Source: Methanoculleus formosensis (lineage in GTDB: Archaea > Halobacteriota > Methanomicrobia > Methanomicrobiales > Methanoculleaceae). Taken from it: DNA of 55,989 nucleotides. The position numbers were made by a program, and so were the translations under genes. Location: positions 1 to 55,989 of the forward strand of contig NZ_VHLL01000011.1 of assembly GCF_025384765.1 (NCBI RefSeq). The letters run 5' to 3'. The notes below the pieces were generated by a model that was given only the letters and a program-made list of their open reading frames with translations, was not told where the DNA came from and did not search any database. This document shows positions 6,128 to 30,201 of this stretch, piece after piece (position 1 is the first letter of the stretch; each line of letters starts with the position of its first letter).

Positions 6128-6229
6128 GCGAGAGTCTCCGGCTTTCGCACCCTCTCCTCATGGCGCCGGCAAAAATTATCTCCTCTTGGGGGCAACAGGT
6201 GTTCCGGCCCGCCCTGTTGAGTGCCGGGT

Positions 6230-6241
6230 ATTTATATTATT
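6230..6241 (+). promoter_or_regulatory. TATA box of the por operon
   Basis: The run ATTTATATTATT lies 30-40 bases before the porC start, with a purine-rich ribosome site AAAGGGGG at 6256-6263. The ribosome site, seven bases ahead of TTG 6271, decides that start. Confidence 0.7.
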
Positions 6242-6270
6242 AATCATTAAGATTTAAAGGGGGTTTTTGT

Positions 6271-6816
6271 TTGAGAGAGTTACGCATTCACGGCAGGGGT
6301 GGTCAGGGTTCCGTGACCGCCGCCGAACTCATTGCTTACGCTGCATTCGAGGGAGGTGTCTTTTCCCAGGCATTCCCGGCCTTCGGCGTGGAACGCCGGG
6401 GCGCCCCGGTTCAGGCGTTCGTCCGGTTCAGTGACGAGAAGATCCGGCTGCGCAGCCAGGTATACGAGCCGGACTACATCATTGTGCAGGACCCGACCCT
6501 GATCGGGGATGTGGACGTCTTCAACGGCATGACTGCAGGCGGTATCGCCATCATCAACACCGAGAAGCCCGACTTCGATGCCCTGGTCCCGGAGGGCGTG
6601 AAGATCTACGCCGTCGATGCGACTACCATCGCGCTCGAAGAACTGGGCGTGCCCATCACCAATACAACCCTGATGGGTGCGTTCGCGGCAGCCACCGGCG
6701 AGATCAAACTTGATGCGCTCGAACATGCACTGCGCAGACGGTTCTCCGGGAGCATGGCCGACAAGAACGTCAGGGCGGCGGAACGTGCGTACAACCTGGT
6801 CGGGGGTGCCGTATAA
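6271..6816 (+). CDS. porC: Pyruvate:ferredoxin oxidoreductase, gamma subunit
   Basis: A 181-residue gamma subunit beginning at a TTG codon with a strong ribosome site just upstream. The family signature GRGGQGSVTAAELIAYA is at the N-terminus, followed by FGVERRGAPVQAFVR. It is part of the four-subunit enzyme that reversibly joins CO2 to acetyl-CoA to give pyruvate, using ferredoxin, the main carbon entry point in methanogens. Stop and start of porC and porD overlap by one base, so they are translationally coupled. It could be a ketoisovalerate homologue, but the C-D-A-B order and the alpha and beta sequences favour pyruvate. Confidence 0.92.
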   Translation: MRELRIHGRGGQGSVTAAELIAYAAFEGGVFSQAFPAFGVERRGAPVQAFVRFSDEKIRLRSQVYEPDYIIVQDPTLIGDVDVFNGMTAGGIAIINTEKPDFDALVPEGVKIYAVDATTIALEELGVPITNTTLMGAFAAATGEIKLDALEHALRRRFSGSMADKNVRAAERAYNLVGGAV

Positions 6817-7076
6817 TGGCGCTGCGAGTCGGTTGCGTCGCACCGCCGGGGAAGGCGCTTGACAACAAGACGGGCGCCTGGCGGGTCTTCAAACCGGTCT
6901 TTGATCCCGAGACGTGCTCGAGGTGTGGCATGTGCGCCACGGTCTGTCCGGAAGGGTGCGTCCGCGAGACGGAGGAGGGCACGTTCGAGCCCGACCTCGA
7001 CTACTGCAAGGGCTGCGGGATCTGCGCGGAAGTCTGTCCGAAGGACAGTATCCGGATGGAGAAGGAGGAGAAATAA
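6816..7076 (+). CDS. porD: Pyruvate:ferredoxin oxidoreductase, delta subunit (ferredoxin)
   Basis: An 86-residue polyferredoxin-type subunit. It has two complete CxxCxxCxxxC clusters, CSRCGMCATVCPEGC and CKGCGICAEVCP, each binding a [4Fe-4S] centre that carries electrons from the TPP site to external ferredoxin. Its stop TAA overlaps the ATG of porA by one base (TAATG). Confidence 0.93.
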   Translation: MALRVGCVAPPGKALDNKTGAWRVFKPVFDPETCSRCGMCATVCPEGCVRETEEGTFEPDLDYCKGCGICAEVCPKDSIRMEKEEK

Positions 7077-16041: not shown

Positions 16042-18042
16042 TCATGCGGGGATCTGGTAGATCTGGACTCCTTCTCTGTCGTAAATGAGTTCGAGCGCAT
16101 CTGTGGGGATCGAGACGGTGTAGCGCTCGCGCTCTGCCGCACCTACGTAGAGCAGGGTGGCGTTGTATGCCCGCGCAAGGTCGACGGTCCGGGTGGGCTG
16201 CTCGTATATCGCCCGCACATCGGCGCTCCGCTCGCCGATACGCCCCTCGTCGCCCCGCCACATGTACTCGTGGAAGGGCATCCCGACGACGGCCGGGATA
16301 CCGGTGAATGAGGAGACCCTTGAGTAGTAGGTGTAGTCGCCGCCCTCCGCCTCGATGATGACGTGGTCGCCGGGAAGACCCCGGAGGAACGCGATCGCCG
16401 CTGCGTCGCCCGGGTGCGAGCCATAGAGGTATGCCGCGCCGTCGAGGGTGCGGCTCCCGTAGCCGAAATCGACGTTGATCGCGAAGGGCGCGACGAGAAG
16501 CAGAACGGCGGCCAGTGCCGGGAGCGCCTTCTCCATCCTCTCCGGGATCCGCCGGTCGATCCCGGTGCCCCGGAGCCACTCCCCGAGGACCACGAGGCTC
16601 GCCGTCCCCATCAGGAACCACGCGGGAAGATAGAACTTGAAGACCGTGTTCATCCGGAAGTAGGTCTCCCCCATGTTGTCCACGAGATAGATGAGTTCGG
16701 TGACGAGGACGATCGTGAGCCCGAGGATGGCAAGCGTGTCTGTGGCCGAGAACCGGCGGCGGGCGAGGAGGTAGACCAGCGGGACGGCGGCGATGGCCGC
16801 CGCCGGGTAGCCGGCGAGCACGAACGGCACCGCGGCGAGGAGGAGGTAGGGGCGCCTCCGGATATCCGGGGCGCAGTAGGCGACCAGCACCGCGAGGAAG
16901 AACCCGTGAACCAGCAGAAACTCCACCGGTGCGGAGGGCACGGGGACGGTTCCGACTCCCGCGACGCCGGGGCTGTTGAGCTGCAGGTAGAACGGGAGGT
17001 AGGTCAGGATCGCGAGCGGCGGCACTGTTGCAAGCACCATCCAGGAGTTCCGGCTGTCCGGCCGGAGGTTCCCGTAGCGCCACCATATCAGGAGGCCGAA
17101 GACCAGCGTGACCGGGGCATAGACCAGCACGTCCCAGGAGTTGAACCCGGGCATCGACCCGAGGGAGAGAGCGGCAAGCCCGCAGAGGATTGCCCTCCCC
17201 CGCATGGAGAGTTCTCCCCACCGCAGGTAGGCGAAGACCAGGAGAAAGAGCAGGAATCCCTGGTTGAAGAAACTCATGACGTGTGGGTGCACGTCGCCCC
17301 AGAGCATCGAGAAGATGGGGTACTCGTTGATGGTGTTCTCGATCGTCCGGGTACTCCCCCAGAGGACATCGAACCAGGCGTCCCCGATGAGGATGTGATA
17401 GAAGGCTGAGGGGTTCGGGAGGAAGAGCGCAACCACCGGGAGCCACCGGTGGCGGTCGAGGAGGAGGTGTCCGAGGGCGTAGAGCGAGACGACGGAGAGG
17501 CCGAGCACCGTCGGGAGGATGAGGTTGAACGTGACCGTCGAAGGCACGCCGGATACAAGCCCGAGCGCCCCGCCCGTCCAGTAGCCGAGGTAGTAATAGA
17601 CGTCCAGCGTCCCCCCCGCGTACCAGGGGTCGAGCGGCGGGACGGCGGGCATCCGCATGATCGAGGCGAGGATCGCGTGGTCCATGAACTTCTCGGCGTA
17701 GGAGATGGTCGGGTTGATCCAGCGCACCTCGAGCATGAAGAGGAAGGGGAGCAGGAAGGCGAGATCCCAGGTGAGCGCCGACCGCAGCCGCTCCCTCGTG
17801 AAGAACCCCCGTGCACCTGCGTACGCGATCGCGGCTGCGAACGGCAGAAGGGCGAGGACGATCGGAAGGCCCGAGAGGCCCAGGTACCACGTGCCGAGCG
17901 TGAAGAGGAGGACCGATGCCGGGTAGGCGGCCGCCGCCGCGAGGCTCCCGAGGGTGCGGTCGAGCGCCGGCCAGACGGCGAGATGGAGCATCTTGACGAC
18001 CGCGAGCCAGAACAGCACGGGAATGACGAACTCAATCGCCAA
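16042..18042 (-). CDS. DUF2298 polytopic membrane protein, probable GT-C-type glycosyltransferase
   Basis: A 666-residue protein with a dozen or more membrane helices and a soluble C-terminal domain from about residue 520. Conserved-looking polar patches are RWINPTISYAEKFMDH, WYAGGTLDVYYYLGYWTGG and INEYPIFSMLWGDVHPH, which lie in external loops as in the DUF2298 (YYY) family. The layout recalls lipid-linked sugar transferases, but activity is unproven. It overlaps the flippase-like gene by 11 bases and closes a four-gene operon with a glycosyltransferase and an FAD enzyme, suggesting work on a lipid-linked surface glycan. Confidence 0.85.
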   Translation of the reverse strand: MAIEFVIPVLFWLAVVKMLHLAVWPALDRTLGSLAAAAAYPASVLLFTLGTWYLGLSGLPIVLALLPFAAAIAYAGARGFFTRERLRSALTWDLAFLLPFLFMLEVRWINPTISYAEKFMDHAILASIMRMPAVPPLDPWYAGGTLDVYYYLGYWTGGALGLVSGVPSTVTFNLILPTVLGLSVVSLYALGHLLLDRHRWLPVVALFLPNPSAFYHILIGDAWFDVLWGSTRTIENTINEYPIFSMLWGDVHPHVMSFFNQGFLLFLLVFAYLRWGELSMRGRAILCGLAALSLGSMPGFNSWDVLVYAPVTLVFGLLIWWRYGNLRPDSRNSWMVLATVPPLAILTYLPFYLQLNSPGVAGVGTVPVPSAPVEFLLVHGFFLAVLVAYCAPDIRRRPYLLLAAVPFVLAGYPAAAIAAVPLVYLLARRRFSATDTLAILGLTIVLVTELIYLVDNMGETYFRMNTVFKFYLPAWFLMGTASLVVLGEWLRGTGIDRRIPERMEKALPALAAVLLLVAPFAINVDFGYGSRTLDGAAYLYGSHPGDAAAIAFLRGLPGDHVIIEAEGGDYTYYSRVSSFTGIPAVVGMPFHEYMWRGDEGRIGERSADVRAIYEQPTRTVDLARAYNATLLYVGAAERERYTVSIPTDALELIYDREGVQIYQIPA

Positions 18043-19012
18043 ACGTATCCTCCGTCTTGATCTCCCTGTTGAACGCTCGCTTCAAGAGGTCCATCGACCA
18101 GTCGCCGAAGTAGTAGATCGACCCGACGCCACCGACGAGCGTGACCAGGTTCTTGATCAGGTGGTCGATGACCGCGATCAGCGTCGCCGTGACCGCCGGG
18201 GTTCCCGCGAGCCCAAACGTCAGGGCGAGTGCGAGTTCGTAGGTGCCCACTCCACCTGGGGTGATCGGAACGGCCTTGACGAGGTTGCCGATGACGATCG
18301 CGAGGACGACGATGCCGAAGGGAACCGGGACCTGGAACATCAGGACGACCGCGTAGCAGACCAGCACGTCGACGAGCCATATCAGGAGCGATGAGCCGCT
18401 GAGCACGCCGAGGGCCCGGGGATTGAGGGAGGCCCGCTTCACTTCGTCGAGCATCCGCTGGACGGCGACGACGATCCGGTTCTCGGACTTCATCCGGCCC
18501 GACCAGAGGAGCACGGCGAAGAAGACGACTCCTGCAGCGAGGGGGACGATAATGACCGTAAGGAACCAGTCGGGGACGTCGAGAACGGCGAGGACGAACG
18601 GGAGTGCGACGGCCCCGAGCACCGCGATCATCAGAATATCGAAGACGCGCTCGACAACGAGTGACGAGAACCCCTGCGAGTAGGTGGCGTCATCCTCGTG
18701 CTTTAAGATGAGCATCCGCACGAGATCGCCGAGACGCGCGGGAACGATGAGGTTCGCCGTCTGGGAGATGAAGATGCAGGCGGTCGCAAAGCCGAGACTC
18801 TTCCTGATGTCAAGCCCCTGCAGGATGAACCGGTACCGGTACCCCCGGAGAACCCAGGCAACAACGCAGATCCCGACGGCGGCAAAGAGGAAGGGTATTA
18901 CGGCGTGCTCAAGCGTCAGCAGGAGGTCGTCCCATACGCGGTAGAGCATGTAGGCGACGATCCCGACCGCGATCAGGGTAGGGATGACGACCGCGCTAAC
19001 TTTTTTCCACAT
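18032..19012 (-). CDS. Flippase-like membrane protein (LPG-synthase transmembrane family, UPF0104)
   Basis: I start at ATG 19012 (MWKKVSAVVIPTL); a longer frame to 19054 runs further into the upstream gene. The 326-residue product has about eight helices with the signatures RGYRYRFILQGL, IVPARLGDLVRMLILK and VPITPGGVGTYELALAL, typical of the AglD/LPG_synthase_TM family. Family members are linked to moving or modifying polyprenyl-linked lipids. It overlaps GT2 upstream by 17 bases and DUF2298 downstream by 11, so the operon is translationally coupled. Confidence 0.85.
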   Translation of the reverse strand: MWKKVSAVVIPTLIAVGIVAYMLYRVWDDLLLTLEHAVIPFLFAAVGICVVAWVLRGYRYRFILQGLDIRKSLGFATACIFISQTANLIVPARLGDLVRMLILKHEDDATYSQGFSSLVVERVFDILMIAVLGAVALPFVLAVLDVPDWFLTVIIVPLAAGVVFFAVLLWSGRMKSENRIVVAVQRMLDEVKRASLNPRALGVLSGSSLLIWLVDVLVCYAVVLMFQVPVPFGIVVLAIVIGNLVKAVPITPGGVGTYELALALTFGLAGTPAVTATLIAVIDHLIKNLVTLVGGVGSIYYFGDWSMDLLKRAFNREIKTEDTFGD

Positions 19013-19715
19013 GGAGCCGCCACCAGAGACGAAGTATCGCCGATCCCATATCAACTACGTCGTTCCTCCGTACCGTCGTCCCCTCGCCCTGCCGCCATTG
19101 CACGGGGAACTCGCGTATCCGGTAACCGTTCTTCTGCGCCCGAACCAGCACCTCGGTGTCCCAGAACCAGTGATCTGCGGTCACCGACGGGAGCAGGGAG
19201 AGAATACGGTCGCGCCGGAACGCCTTGAACCCGCACTGGTGATCGCGGAGCGAACTCCCGAGGATCGTCCGGACAAGCGTGTTGTAACCGCGGCTTGCGA
19301 TCTCCCGCCCGCCGCTCCGTACGATGGTGCTCTCGGGGAGGAGGCGGGAGCCGGTTGCGATGTCGTGGCCATCGCGGATGGTATCGATCAGCTCGGGGAG
19401 ATGCCGCATGTCGGTCGCAAGATCCACGTCGTAGTAGCAGACTATCGATCCCGAGGCTGCGGTAAACGCGCGGTTGAGCGCCCGCCCCCGTCCGAGCCGC
19501 TCGTCGGAGTGGAGCAGGCGGACCCGGGGGTCTTTTCCCTCACACTCCCTGACGAACTCCGTGCTCCCGTCGGTACTCCCGTCCTCGGCGACGATGAGTT
19601 CGAACCCTCCCGGGGCGATCACCTCCAGGGTATCAAGCGACCGTGGTATGGCGGCCCTGAGTGCCTTAAGATCGTTATAGACCGGAAGGACGGCGCTCAC
19701 CTCGATCTCACGCAT
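18996..19715 (-). CDS. GT2-family glycosyltransferase (dolichyl-phosphate sugar synthase type)
   Basis: A 239-residue cytoplasmic GT-A enzyme. It opens MREIEVSAVLPVYND, has the nucleotide-sugar motif VAEDGSTDGS, the metal-binding DVDLATD (DxD-like), and CGFKAFRRDRIL plus DTEVLVRAQKNGY typical of dolichyl-phosphate mannose/glucose synthases. It probably loads a sugar onto dolichyl phosphate for the membrane proteins next to it. ATG 19715 lies inside the last codons of the FAD enzyme. Confidence 0.88.
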   Translation of the reverse strand: MREIEVSAVLPVYNDLKALRAAIPRSLDTLEVIAPGGFELIVAEDGSTDGSTEFVRECEGKDPRVRLLHSDERLGRGRALNRAFTAASGSIVCYYDVDLATDMRHLPELIDTIRDGHDIATGSRLLPESTIVRSGGREIASRGYNTLVRTILGSSLRDHQCGFKAFRRDRILSLLPSVTADHWFWDTEVLVRAQKNGYRIREFPVQWRQGEGTTVRRNDVVDMGSAILRLWWRLHVEKS

Positions 19716-20940
19716 CCGGGTACCTCGCGAGAACCCTCTTTGCCACTTCCTGCCCGGCAACGACCGAACCGTTCATGCTCCGCTCCGGGTAATTCGGGGG
19801 GCTGAACATCCCGGCGAGGAAGAGTCCGTGCTCTTCGTAGTCGGGCAGGCGCTTCCTGAGCCCTGTTGTGTAGACCGGGCCGGCATACGGGTCGACCGCG
19901 AGCCGGTGCCAGTGCACCTCGTCCTCGCCGACAGAGAACCGGCGGCAGAAGTCGGCAAGCATCGACTGCTCGAACCCCTCCGGGAGCCGGCCCGTGAAGT
20001 AGGATGCAAGGTAGACGATATGCTCGCCGTACCACTCGAATGGGGCGAAGTTGGTGTGCGAGACCACCGCACCGTAAGGAGCCGCATCCTTCATGTTCAG
20101 CCAGTATACCCCGTCGGTCACGTCCCGGTCGAGCGCGAGGGTCATGCAGGCGGCGCCCTGGTAGGGTATTTTGGCGATATCGAGACCGGAAAGGTCGGCG
20201 GTCACCTGGGGGGGGAGCGTCGATACGACGGCATCGTATGGTTTCCCGTTGACGATCCAGCCGCTCCCTTCCCGCCGGATCTCCTCGACGGGAGTGTCCG
20301 GCACGATCGAGGCCCCCCGTCGCACCGCCTCTTCCTCGAGCCGTGCTATGAAGTGCCGGAATCCCCCTTTCAGGTATCCGAGGCGCTCGCCCCCGGCACC
20401 CCGGTCGGATCGGATGGCGATGCGGGATATGAGCCAGGCCGCGGAGACCTCGCCACGGCGCTCCCCGAACTTGCTCTTTAAGAGCGGTTCGAAGAACGAA
20501 GCATAGATCCCGGAGCCGAGGTTGTCCAGGATGAACTCCTCCGCGGTGATCTCGTCGAGCGCCGAGACGTCGAGCCGCCGGGAACGCAGGGTCAGCAGGC
20601 CGAGACGGGCCTTATCCATGAACGTGAGATGGGGGTAGCGCAGGATCTCGGTCAGGGTGGTGAGCGGGTGGATGGTTCCGTCGACGTAATAGCCGGTGGA
20701 TCCTCGAAGCCATACCAGCCGATCGGCTACCTGCAGCGTATCGAAGAGATCGAGCAGGGCGGCATCGCCCGCAAAACAATGATGGTAATACTCCTCGATC
20801 CAGTAATCGCCGATCCGGTACGAACCGAGGCATCCGCCCGGAACGGGCCTTCGCTCAAAGAGATCTACCTGGTGTCTCCCGGCAAGTTCGAGAGCCGAGA
20901 CCAGACCGGACAGACCTCCCCCCACAACGCAGATCTTCAT
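19708..20940 (-). CDS. FAD-dependent oxidoreductase (protoporphyrinogen oxidase/amine-oxidase fold)
   Basis: A 410-residue flavoprotein. The dinucleotide motif VVGGGLSGLVSALELAG begins at residue 5, followed by FERRPVPGGCLGSY, and the C-terminal FAD segment is GLFLAGMFSPPNYPERSMNGSV. The middle contains the substrate domain with YYHHCFAGD. In this operon it may reduce or oxidise an isoprenoid or a sugar intermediate. It is read divergently from the CetZ-like gene and has a ribosome site GGGGTGAAGG directly before the start. Confidence 0.88.
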   Translation of the reverse strand: MKICVVGGGLSGLVSALELAGRHQVDLFERRPVPGGCLGSYRIGDYWIEEYYHHCFAGDAALLDLFDTLQVADRLVWLRGSTGYYVDGTIHPLTTLTEILRYPHLTFMDKARLGLLTLRSRRLDVSALDEITAEEFILDNLGSGIYASFFEPLLKSKFGERRGEVSAAWLISRIAIRSDRGAGGERLGYLKGGFRHFIARLEEEAVRRGASIVPDTPVEEIRREGSGWIVNGKPYDAVVSTLPPQVTADLSGLDIAKIPYQGAACMTLALDRDVTDGVYWLNMKDAAPYGAVVSHTNFAPFEWYGEHIVYLASYFTGRLPEGFEQSMLADFCRRFSVGEDEVHWHRLAVDPYAGPVYTTGLRKRLPDYEEHGLFLAGMFSPPNYPERSMNGSVVAGQEVAKRVLARYPDA

Positions 20941-21051
20941 CCTTCACCCCTATGTATGAAAATTATAAGAATCCTGGGTTATAATGTATGCATGGTCTTT
21001 ATACATAAGCGTGGATATAATTAATTAGTCATTATGAGGGTGTGAAGCTGA
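20941..21051. promoter_or_regulatory. Divergent promoters: FAD operon and CetZ operon
   Basis: This AT-rich 111-base gap has several TATA candidates. For the plus strand, TTTATA at 20998-21003 fits, with ribosome site GAGGGTG near 21036. For the minus strand, ACATTATAACCC (20977-20988) fits. Confidence 0.6.
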
Positions 21052-22218
21052 ATGAGGGTCTTCTTCATAGGATTCGGTCAGGCTGGGGGCAAAATTGTCG
21101 ATATGTTCATTGAACAGGACAAACGAATGCAGACCCAGAATTTCAGGGGGATCGCCGTAAATACGGCGCGTACCGACCTGATGGGACTGAAGAATATCGA
21201 ACTTAAAGATCGGCTCCTGATCGGCCAGACCGTGGTGAAAGGGCATGGTGTCGGGACCGACAATGTGACCGGTGCGCGGGTGACTGCCGATGAGATCGAT
21301 GCCATCATCAACGCCATTGATTCGAGGGGGACGCACGATGTCGATGCTTTCGTCATCATCGCCGGCCTCGGCGGCGGAACCGGCTCAGGGGGTTCGCCGG
21401 TACTCGCCCGCCACTTGAAGCGCATCTACCGGGAACCGGTCTACGCGATCGGCATCCTGCCCGCCCCCGAAGAAGGCCGACTCTACTCCTACAACGCAGC
21501 GCGTTCCCTGAGCACCCTGGTGAACGAGGCGGATAATACCTTCATCTTCGACAACAGTGCCTGGAAGAATGAAGGAGAGAGCGTCAAGGATGCCTACAAC
21601 CGGCTGAACGACGAGATTGTCCGCCGGTTCGGCGTGCTCTTCCGTGCAGGCGAGGTCGGCAAGGCCGGTATCGGCGAGATGGTCGTGGACTCGAGCGAGG
21701 TCATCAACACTCTCCGGGGTGGCGGCATCAGCTCTGTTGGATACGCCATCAGCGAGAAGATCAGCCCCCGTACGAAGCAGAGCCAGGGGCTCCTCTCCGG
21801 TCTGGTGCGCAAGAAGGAGAAGACCGAGGAGGTCCTGACCGGGGAGGACAAGTCGGCGAAGATCATCGCTCTTGTTCGGCGTGCCATGCTCGGGCGCCTC
21901 ACCCTGCCGTGCGACTACTCGACGGCCGAGCGCGGTCTTGTCCTCCTCGCGGGCCCGTCGGATGAGATGGACCGGAAGGGCGTCGAGAAGTCGAAGAGCT
22001 GGGTGGAGGAGAACATCGCCGGCGTCGAGGTGCGTGGCGGGGATTACCCGGTGCAGAGCGACTACATCGCCGCGGTGGTGGTTCTTGCGACGATCGGGAA
22101 CGCTCCCCGGATCACCGAACTCCTCGAGATTGCAAAGGCGACGAAGGAAGATGTCCTCAAGTCCAAGGAAAAACGCTCGACCATGTTCGATGACGGCATA
22201 GAACCGCTGTTCGAGTGA
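21052..22218 (+). CDS. Tubulin/FtsZ-superfamily GTPase, CetZ-like
   Basis: A 388-residue cytoskeletal GTPase. The tubulin signature lies at residues 105-113 (GLGGGTGSG), preceded by N-terminal GFGQAGGKIVD (nucleotide binding) and followed by the NTARTDL segment of the T3 region. Compared with FtsZ, it lacks the usual GNAT and has a longer C-terminal domain, which fits CetZ and non-FtsZ archaeal tubulins. In haloarchaea CetZ controls cell shape and motility; its role in methanogens is unknown. Nine bases separate it from a membrane-anchored coiled-coil gene. Confidence 0.88.
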   Translation: MRVFFIGFGQAGGKIVDMFIEQDKRMQTQNFRGIAVNTARTDLMGLKNIELKDRLLIGQTVVKGHGVGTDNVTGARVTADEIDAIINAIDSRGTHDVDAFVIIAGLGGGTGSGGSPVLARHLKRIYREPVYAIGILPAPEEGRLYSYNAARSLSTLVNEADNTFIFDNSAWKNEGESVKDAYNRLNDEIVRRFGVLFRAGEVGKAGIGEMVVDSSEVINTLRGGGISSVGYAISEKISPRTKQSQGLLSGLVRKKEKTEEVLTGEDKSAKIIALVRRAMLGRLTLPCDYSTAERGLVLLAGPSDEMDRKGVEKSKSWVEENIAGVEVRGGDYPVQSDYIAAVVVLATIGNAPRITELLEIAKATKEDVLKSKEKRSTMFDDGIEPLFE

Positions 22219-22227
22219 GGAGACGTT

Positions 22228-23313
22228 ATGAAGGCAAACATCAGCAGATGGTTCATTCTCCTGCTGGCACTGGTCTGTGTCGCGCAGGCGGTATCGGCGT
22301 TCGACGTCAAGACCGAGAAGGTCGATCCCGCAAGCGGTGCGCTTGAGCCCGGTCAGCAGGTGAACGCGCGCTATGTGCTCACCTACGACATGGATGAGCG
22401 TAACCAGAACGACGAGTCGTTCGAGTTCAGCACCGGACTATCGAACCCCGTCTGGGACTTCATTATCTACCGCGACGGGGTCGCTATCTACACCACTAAG
22501 AAGACCGGGTACTACCCGGTCCTGACGGAGTTTGAGCTCGCCTATGGTGACGGTAATATCGAACTTGATGCCCAGGTGCGCGGCGTTGTCCCCTCAAGCG
22601 CGAGCAGCAAGATCCTGATCACCAAGATCGATCACCTGCGGGATAAGGATGTGAAGGACACTCACTCCGTGACCCGCGACGTCGTGAACTCGGCCCAGAT
22701 CGAGGGTTCTCTTGCCGCCCAGCAGCAGCGCCTCAAAGACCTGAAGGCCGATCTCGATGAGAAATCCGCACAGGGCGTGGATGTCGCCGCTGCCCAGGCC
22801 AGGTACAACGCTGCGAGCCAGGCGCTCACCAGCGCTGCATCGGCAGGCCCGTCGCAGGCTGCGAGCTACATCGCCACCGCGAAGAAAGATATAGATGAGG
22901 GGATTGCGCTCCTCGATAAGGCATGGGCCGAGAAAGCGGTCGCCGACACCGGTGCGGCAATCGAGTCCCTCGATGGGATGATCACTTACTTCGTCGAGAA
23001 CCGCTCCATGGGTGCCGACCCGCAGGTGGTCGCCATCATGACCAAGCGCGAGAGCGCCGTCCAGTTCTACTCCCAGTCACAGGACAACCTGAACGGCAAG
23101 AACTACCCGCTGGCGCGCTCGAAGGCAACTGACGGTCTGAATAAGGCGAACGAGGCTTTGACCGATGCGACCGCGCTCAAGGAGAGGATCGGCGAAGGGT
23201 TCAACATCGGCGGCAATCTCCTCCTCTACATCGGCATTGGGGTCGTCATCGTCCTTATCGTCGCAGGCGTCGTGATATACCGGAAGAAGACTGGATGGGA
23301 TGAGCTCGGATAA
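22228..23313 (+). CDS. Exported coiled-coil protein with C-terminal membrane anchor, co-transcribed with CetZ
   Basis: A 361-residue protein. Residues 1-24 are a signal peptide ending near AVSA. A beta-rich domain (about 25-125) with FSTGLSNPVWDFIIYRDG is followed by a long helical region (about 150-320) rich in Ala, Gln, Asp and Lys (LAAQQQRLKDLKADLDEK and similar), likely coiled coil. One helix, LLLYIGIGVVIVLIVAGVV, precedes the short basic tail YRKKTGWDELG. So most of it is outside the cell. I recognise no named family. The 9-base gap to the CetZ-like gene suggests the two work together. Confidence 0.8.
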   Translation: MKANISRWFILLLALVCVAQAVSAFDVKTEKVDPASGALEPGQQVNARYVLTYDMDERNQNDESFEFSTGLSNPVWDFIIYRDGVAIYTTKKTGYYPVLTEFELAYGDGNIELDAQVRGVVPSSASSKILITKIDHLRDKDVKDTHSVTRDVVNSAQIEGSLAAQQQRLKDLKADLDEKSAQGVDVAAAQARYNAASQALTSAASAGPSQAASYIATAKKDIDEGIALLDKAWAEKAVADTGAAIESLDGMITYFVENRSMGADPQVVAIMTKRESAVQFYSQSQDNLNGKNYPLARSKATDGLNKANEALTDATALKERIGEGFNIGGNLLLYIGIGVVIVLIVAGVVIYRKKTGWDELG

Positions 23314-23329: not shown

Positions 23330-23363
23330 TTTTTCGCACCTCCCCCCGGTTTCCCCATTTTTT
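23330..23363 (+). terminator. T-run terminators after the CetZ operon
   Basis: Two T tracts, five Ts at 23330-23334 and six at 23358-23363, follow the stop at 23313. Oligo-T tracts are the usual archaeal transcription stop. Confidence 0.5.
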
Positions 23364-29050: not shown

Positions 29051-29761
29051 TTATAGAAGGGCGAGGAGAAGGATGATCCCTGTCCGGACGATCTCGTTCG
29101 TCGCGCCGACGACGTCGCCGTTGACGCCGCCAAAGAGCCGCCGGGAGAGGGCGAGCATCAGCGCGGCGATGATCGCCGTGGCCGCGAGCGCGAGCGCGAT
29201 GTGCATCTTCGGTACCGGCAGCAGGAAGAGCGGCAGCGCGAGCAGCGAGGCCGGGAGAAGGAACCACGGTTTTGCAAACCCATGAAGGTAAGAGTGGATC
29301 CCTTCCCGGAACGGCGCGCCGAGCGTGGTGAGCCAGGACATCGCGACCTTTGCCGAGACCTCGGCGATGAGGATGGCCGCCGGGAGGTATATGACTGTTT
29401 GTAGTCCGGCGAACGCAAGGAGTGTGACGACGATCCCCGCCGCGACCGCCCCTGCGCCGGTCGTCCGGTCGGTCATGGCCGCGACCCGCTTCTCCCGGCT
29501 CCCGTGGGCCATAAGCCCGTCGCCGAAGTCCAGCAGGCCGTCGAAGTGGTTGCACCCGGAGAGGAGGAGCACCACGGCGAGGGCGACGGCCGCACCCACT
29601 ACGGGGGATGCTATCCAGCAGGTGATGCTGGCCGCTATCCCGCCGATGACATATCCGGCGAGTGGATAGAGGTAGGAACGGCGGGCAAAGTGTTCGAACT
29701 CGACAGGTCTCCCGAGGGGGAGGGAGGTGCAGAACTGCAGGAGAGCGAGGACGGACTTCAC
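29051..29761 (-). CDS. cobS: Adenosylcobinamide-GDP ribazoletransferase
   Basis: A 236-residue membrane enzyme that joins alpha-ribazole (phosphate) to adenosylcobinamide-GDP in the last steps of cobamide synthesis. The signature FDGLLDFGDGLMAHGSREKR with an acidic metal site and MTDRTTGAGAVAAG is complete, and GVNGDVVGATNEI is near the end. About six helices. It overlaps cobZ by four bases. Confidence 0.95.
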   Translation of the reverse strand: MKSVLALLQFCTSLPLGRPVEFEHFARRSYLYPLAGYVIGGIAASITCWIASPVVGAAVALAVVLLLSGCNHFDGLLDFGDGLMAHGSREKRVAAMTDRTTGAGAVAAGIVVTLLAFAGLQTVIYLPAAILIAEVSAKVAMSWLTTLGAPFREGIHSYLHGFAKPWFLLPASLLALPLFLLPVPKMHIALALAATAIIAALMLALSRRLFGGVNGDVVGATNEIVRTGIILLLALL

Positions 29762-30201
29762 ACCGATCCCATCGACTCGCTGTAGAGGCGCGACGTGCAG
29801 CCCGCGATCAGCCCGGCGACGGCGTCGTCGAGGAACGGCCCGAGTTCTTTCAGGATCCCCGGTTTCTTCTGGTCGTACCGGGTGAACTCAAACCGCGCAT
29901 AGGTCCCACCGATCACCTCGGCGATGGCCATCCCGATGATCTCGTCGGAGAGGAGGAAGACCGGATCGTCGGCGATCTCGGAGTCTCTTCGCTTTACGTA
30001 GAGTTCGTCCTCGAGCAGGAGGGCGCCGAGGAGGAGCGATGAAATGTTTGGGTCCTCCAGTGCCTTCCCGATCTTTGCGTCAAGCCTGCGCGCGGCCTCA
30101 TCCGCACCTATTCCGTGGGGAACGTAGAGTTCCATCGCGGCAGCGACGATATCCCCCCTTTCGATGCCCTTCTCTTCCAGTCTGCGCTCTATCTCGAACA
30201 T
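29758..30201 (-). CDS. cobZ: Alpha-ribazole-phosphate phosphatase, archaeal CobZ type
   Basis: A 147-residue protein with the PgpA-like fold: MFEIERRLEEKGIERGDIV at the start and DEIIGMAIAEVIGGTYARFE as the metal/phosphate helix, then PFLDDAVAGLIAG. In Methanosarcina, CobZ removes phosphate from the cobamide intermediate; adjacency to cobS supports the same role here. The alternative, phosphatidylglycerophosphatase A, is less likely because the sequence is shorter and soluble. Confidence 0.88.
   Translation of the reverse strand: MFEIERRLEEKGIERGDIVAAAMELYVPHGIGADEAARRLDAKIGKALEDPNISSLLLGALLLEDELYVKRRDSEIADDPVFLLSDEIIGMAIAEVIGGTYARFEFTRYDQKKPGILKELGPFLDDAVAGLIAGCTSRLYSESMGSV

Follow-up and report, generated by a model that had tools for sequence, protein, structure and literature searches.

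A single-pass membrane protein encoded next to the archaeal tubulin CetZ is a strong candidate for a link between cytoskeleton and cell envelope

The locus considered here raises the question of whether the membrane protein encoded directly behind a tubulin-like gene serves to connect the archaeal tubulin CetZ to the cell envelope. It lies at positions 21052 to 23313 of the window, i.e. the whole stretch of 55,989 nucleotides that was analysed (contig NZ_VHLL01000011.1 of Methanoculleus formosensis); all features of the gene pair and its signals are on the + strand. The first gene (21052..22218) encodes a tubulin-superfamily GTPase of 388 aa, which scored 243 bits with the Pfam family CetZ_C (PF21011; cut-off 21.6) and 110 bits with Tubulin. 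The motif GGGTGSGG, which marks a Tubulin/FtsZ GTPase domain, is invariant in the CetZ alignment A2, and the C-terminus DGIEPLFE is conserved. Among solved structures, 4b46 was the best relative with 412 bits, followed by 4b45 (CetZ2) with 259 and 3zid with 82 bits, whereas true FtsZ chains of the PDB reached at most 55 bits; the NCBIfam model ftsZ gave 79 bits and thus stayed below its cut-off of 295. Judged by these scores, the product is a true CetZ, closer to CetZ than to FtsZ. A second, divergent tubulin-like gene (L004:52-2049; G000:C1:530543) encodes a protein of 665 aa, whose long tail is of low complexity, and adjoins a mer-like gene. PDB entry 4b46 is Haloferax CetZ1 (PMC9856176). 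With 4b46 scoring far above 3zid, the CetZ of the window may fall into the Halobacteria-like group; the CetZ tree described below covered no deep-group CetZ that could have served as outgroup. This 'Halobacteria-like' group, comprising Methanomicrobiales and Archaeoglobales, was named by Brown and Duggin 2023 (PMC9856176), who also surveyed cetZ neighbourhoods; their analysis of non-haloarchaeal neighbourhoods considered only those cetZ genes that fall outside the Halobacteria branch, and the partner protein introduced below is not described in their main text. Nor did a literature search of partial coverage (without bioRxiv and with few subscription papers) find a name for it.

The partner gene (22228..23313) encodes 361 aa, which constitute a predicted exported single-pass membrane protein. 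An AlphaFold2 model based on 45 sequences had a mean pLDDT of 89.8 and showed an N-terminal hydrophobic helix (residues 3-17), a beta sandwich, five helices, a membrane helix and a short disordered tail. In agreement with alignment A1, the first helix belongs to a signal peptide (residues 1-24; 22228..22299), whose probable cleavage site is ...AQAVSA|F. It is followed by a presumably extracellular Ig-like beta sandwich (residues 25-152; 22300..22683), an extracellular helical bundle (residues 155-323; 22690..23196) with pLDDT values mostly above 90, and a membrane helix (residues 331-354; 23218..23289), which is also seen in the hydropathy of relatives. The protein ends in YRKKTGWDELG (residues 351-361; 23278..23310), whose cytoplasmic orientation is suggested by the signal peptide and the basic stop-transfer residues. 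Thus, model and alignment recovered the signal peptide, beta domain, single C-terminal membrane helix and short basic tail of the original prediction; what was read there as a long coiled-coil is more aptly called a helical bundle, in which a single helix reaches 51 residues.

This protein did not match any Pfam or NCBIfam family at curated cut-offs. Pfam searches with 33 relatives gave scattered weak matches, the commonest being DUF4398 (10 of 33, best E-value 9e-6), and the partner matched neither the SepF domain of Pfam nor the S-layer glycoprotein model NF041431. On the level of folds, the comparison assigned it only to a common class of beta sandwiches (pilins, adhesins, arrestin- and RhoGDI-like proteins); 3-D matches of the sandwich were mostly pilin and adhesin domains with Z-scores up to 10.1, and the RetS sensor domain was among the partner's matches. 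A weak similarity of the helices to the plasmid protein pT26-6p (2wb7; Z-score 7.4 over 87 residues) was discarded, being below the level reached by unrelated helical models. The same genome encodes an S-layer-glycoprotein-like protein (L224; G000:C1, about 29463-29870), which contains the partner's beta domain and scored 451 bits with the MEMAR_RS02690 family S-layer glycoprotein model (NF041431), below the cut-off of 600.

The two genes are closely spaced. The nine-base gap between GTPase and membrane protein was found exactly as predicted, at 22219-22227, and both genes are in the same frame across it (TGA GGA GAC GTT ATG). The stop codon of cetZ runs into the Shine-Dalgarno-like TGAGGAG, which is followed by the rest of the gap (22216..22227); an arrangement of similar kind occurs at many Methanomicrobiales loci. 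Upstream of cetZ, CTTTATA at 20997..21003 may represent a TATA box, as far as its consensus match goes, and T-runs 3' of the pair (23330..23363; TTTTT at 23330 and TTTTTT at 23358) form a possible terminator. Between cetZ and the partner gene, a search for a TATA-box-like motif and for T-runs in the 9-nt gap found neither. Scans for bacterial promoters and terminators gave a signal near the level of shuffled sequences.

A sample of 150 Methanomicrobiales genomes from 35 genera and six families was compared; 108 of these have a completeness of 90% or more and a contamination of 5% or less. Within this subset, the partner was matched in 107 genomes and the CetZ query, which catches FtsZ as well, in all 108. 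The only one of them without the partner (G080) also has no corresponding CetZ: its best CetZ match had an E-value of 2.8e-39, compared to about 1e-170 or better where a near-complete copy is present. The genes are adjacent and co-oriented in 131 of the 133 genomes of the order in which both could be placed, and the two exceptions are fragmented assemblies. A synteny comparison showed that the flanks of the pair are conserved as well. Named from sequence, the upstream flank is a divergent block of FAD-oxidoreductase-like, GT2, flippase-like and large membrane protein genes, whereas a PMT-like gene, rpsJ and EF-1alpha follow the pair. In the window, this order-wide divergent block of surface-glycosylation-type genes occupies 16042-20940 and shares an intergenic region with cetZ. 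Since the flanks are conserved too, adjacency within the order does not by itself distinguish functional pairing from a gene order that has been frozen, and it was dismissed as sole proof of such pairing. Genomes of the Methanocalculus type (L083, L086, L171) have a second close copy of CetZ, which has no partner beside it.

Outside the order, the same genomes were searched with a profile of 33 partners (A1) and with the CetZ query. The profile search identified adjacent cetZ-partner pairs in many families beyond Methanomicrobiales, and at these loci none of the flanking genes typical of Methanomicrobiales was found, yet the pair persists. A scan of named genomes with the CetZ alignment gave 80 loci; at 63 of these, a protein with a signal peptide and one membrane helix is encoded directly downstream. 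The 63 paired loci span Methanomicrobiales, Archaeoglobi, ANME-1, Methanocellales-like archaea, Syntrophoarchaeum and haloarchaea. About half of the 17 unpaired loci stop at or near a contig edge; those with enough sequence include Geoglobus, an Archaeoglobus and the second copy of a Methanocalculus, and at one haloarchaeal locus a cofC-like gene adjoins cetZ. Some haloarchaea possess a CetZ ending in ELEPLF or ELESLF with no partner adjacent. The pairing is phylum-wide and far beyond chance. A lack of conserved pairing, which would have refuted the original prediction, was thus not observed; of the methanogens, among which conserved pairing was to be looked for, it is seen in Methanomicrobiales, while the other pairs occur in mostly non-methanogenic Halobacteriota. 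Rooted at its midpoint, the CetZ tree divides into one half with haloarchaea, ANME-1 and Methanocellales-like sequences and a second half with Archaeoglobi and Methanomicrobiales. The presence of the partner in both halves suggests that its association with cetZ is old. Among named organisms, Methanoculleus species come closest to the window. In one Archaeoglobi genome, an extra divergent CetZ-like gene (L135:4786-5805) lies directly upstream of the pair.

The haloarchaeal loci include one with a near-identical counterpart of Haloferax CetZ1 (HVO_2204). CetZ of Haloferax denitrificans (L222) aligns with 4b46 over all 395 residues with a handful of differences (about 98% identity). Downstream, an open reading frame of 264 aa (6157-6951) overlaps cetZ1 by 32 nt, counted to the end of the stop codon, and its product terminates in SYDKLG; a cofC-like gene follows at 6958. 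Overlap of cetZ and partner gene is seen in haloarchaea, and the similar N-termini of the partners from three other haloarchaea (L214, L220, L221) support the overlapping start. In H. volcanii, its counterpart would be expected between cetZ1 and cofC.

In the 45-row alignment A3, the mean frequency of the commonest residue is 0.95 for WDELG (residues 357-361; 23296-23310), compared to 0.28-0.54 elsewhere in the partner, with means of 0.43 for the beta domain, 0.46 for the helices and 0.50 for the membrane helix. No other stretch of the protein comes close to WDELG in conservation, which strongly supports the earlier proposal that the short tail matters. Synonymous positions of the WDELG codons are free to vary; the constraint therefore acts on the protein. 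When 83 Methanomicrobiales genomes were scanned for the DNA pattern of WDELG followed by a stop codon, nearly all contained one site, and the listed sites are the ends of partner genes; matches outside the order, as far as they were read (L097, L098), lie inside a permease-type gene and were set aside as chance. Partners of Archaeoglobi terminate in WDELR, WDELK or FDEL[RK], those of haloarchaea mostly in [YH][DS][KR]LG, with two divergent endings (QTRLR and THKLQ), the Methanocellales-like partner in WERL, and the ANME-1 partner in RGIY or close to it; the WDELG motif is thus not universal. Where the partner gene of Archaeoglobi is unlinked from cetZ, a WDEL[RK] or FDELK tail was kept in all 14 cases examined. 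After an unlinked partner, some Archaeoglobi (L226, L228, L238) encode a second related membrane protein with a basic stretch and a DKW end. In a fold of the read-through CetZ-partner fusion, the tail had a pLDDT of about 36, but the model of the CetZ half was poor as well, so this fold speaks neither for nor against docking of the tail.

The paralogues that were read and have no neighbouring cetZ all lack the tail motif; two of them (L085, L087) have lost the membrane helix together with the tail. In a further case (L088:2890-5289; G100:C56), the partner's ectodomain and membrane helix are followed by a Ser/Thr protein kinase (Pkinase, E-value 2.8e-43) in place of the tail, and the 5' end of this locus corresponds to the final 46 codons of cetZ. 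The retained 3' end of cetZ suggests that the kinase fusion originated from a duplication of the cetZ-partner operon. In a genome in which no CetZ was found at an E-value of 1e-20, a protein that resembles the partner but lacks the tail motif (L239; G155:C2) is encoded beside chaperone-type genes.

These observations are best explained by a two-gene unit of an archaeal cell-envelope cytoskeleton. According to the predicted topology, the partner would be exported, exposing a beta sandwich on a helical stalk, cross the membrane once and leave a tail of about 11 residues in the cytoplasm. The last residues of the tail (WDELG, WDELR/K in Archaeoglobi, YDKLG in Haloferax) most probably serve to bind CetZ or its filaments, which may thus be tied to the membrane and to any structure that the ectodomain contacts. 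Since the tail is more constrained than the rest of the protein and is found with CetZ, the simplest reading is that this peptide binds CetZ or a factor acting together with it. We regard a functional link of some kind between partner and CetZ as highly probable and lean slightly towards direct binding of CetZ by the tail of this single-pass envelope protein. The RGIY ending in ANME-1 and the CetZ copies of some haloarchaea and of Methanocalculus that have no partner beside them speak against this reading. Coupling of CetZ to the S-layer via the partner can be envisaged; here, the one link is the recurrence of the beta domain in the S-layer-like protein L224.

Other readings of the same data have to be weighed. 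The partner could be a surface receptor that senses the envelope or a ligand and regulates assembly or position of CetZ through its tail instead of anchoring filaments. The kinase fusion, which kept ectodomain, membrane helix and the 3' end of cetZ while exchanging the tail, indicates that the ectodomain can be an input module, and the RetS sensor domain among the 3-D matches fits such a role; however, the fusion is a single case, no ligand site is known, and pilins and adhesins dominate the matches of the sandwich; we consider signalling of this kind unlikely. The partner might also be a cargo or client that CetZ positions, while its tail is bound by a different adaptor, e.g. a MinD-, archaellum- or chemotaxis-linked factor. 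Haloferax CetZ1 influences where motility proteins are positioned, and its own placement is brought about by MinD proteins (PMC11621097), and the tail is conserved even in partners unlinked from cetZ; but it is cetZ itself with which the gene is paired, and such an adaptor is not encoded in the two-gene unit. Positioning as cargo seems no more probable than the receptor function. Finally, the two genes could merely be co-expressed, the partner working alone in the envelope and WDELG being a signal for stability or sorting, such as a C-terminal degron or its opposite. Synteny of the whole block within the order makes adjacency there unspecific for the pair, which favours this reading, but outside the order the flanks differ while the pair stays, the genes overlap in haloarchaea, and the paralogues read without cetZ have no tail. 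Mere co-expression is quite improbable.

Returning to an anchor that binds CetZ by its tail, the more comprehensive proposal is that an unnamed single-pass family, inherited with CetZ since early Halobacteriota, constitutes a dedicated anchor or receptor of CetZ, which acts via a clade-specific C-terminal motif and links the tubulin to the envelope, Haloferax included; to this proposal we assign even chances. If true, an archaeal tubulin grips the envelope through a transmembrane protein. The partner is a strong candidate for the link that has been missing from CetZ cytoskeleton to cell envelope, and its overlap with a Haloferax cetZ1 gene makes the question genetically tractable in the best-studied model.

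With respect to known systems, the partner would do for CetZ what SepF or ZipA does for FtsZ, although it is built like a receptor that passes the membrane once. ZipA-type anchors, too, bring a single membrane helix close to a tubulin-superfamily filament; the layout of the partner is the opposite, with a large part outside and a tiny tail inside, and no sequence relation was found. SepF is a cytoplasmic protein with a domain of its own, whereas the partner is exported, crosses the membrane once, carries a large ectodomain and has no SepF match. In archaea, SepF anchors FtsZ to the membrane (PMC8178401, PMC8187382), and the job proposed for the partner would also be to tie a tubulin-superfamily filament to the membrane. 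Haloferax CetZ1 belongs to the same Pfam family as the CetZ of the window and provides its closest solved structure, and the locus of a near-identical CetZ1 also has a partner gene, although the Haloferax partner comprises only 264 aa compared to 361 aa in the window. The contribution of Haloferax CetZ to motility structures has been described, with the mechanism left undefined there (PMC11621097). Cells of Methanoculleus are irregular cocci (PMC12008871); rod formation is thus not a shared outcome, and the role that CetZ1 has in forming the rods of Haloferax should not simply be assumed here. The beta domain relates the partner, by way of L224, to the MEMAR_RS02690 family S-layer glycoproteins, while the partner itself stands outside that family model (NF041431). 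A membrane partner for a tubulin-like filament is familiar as a kind; its protein family and topology appear to be new.
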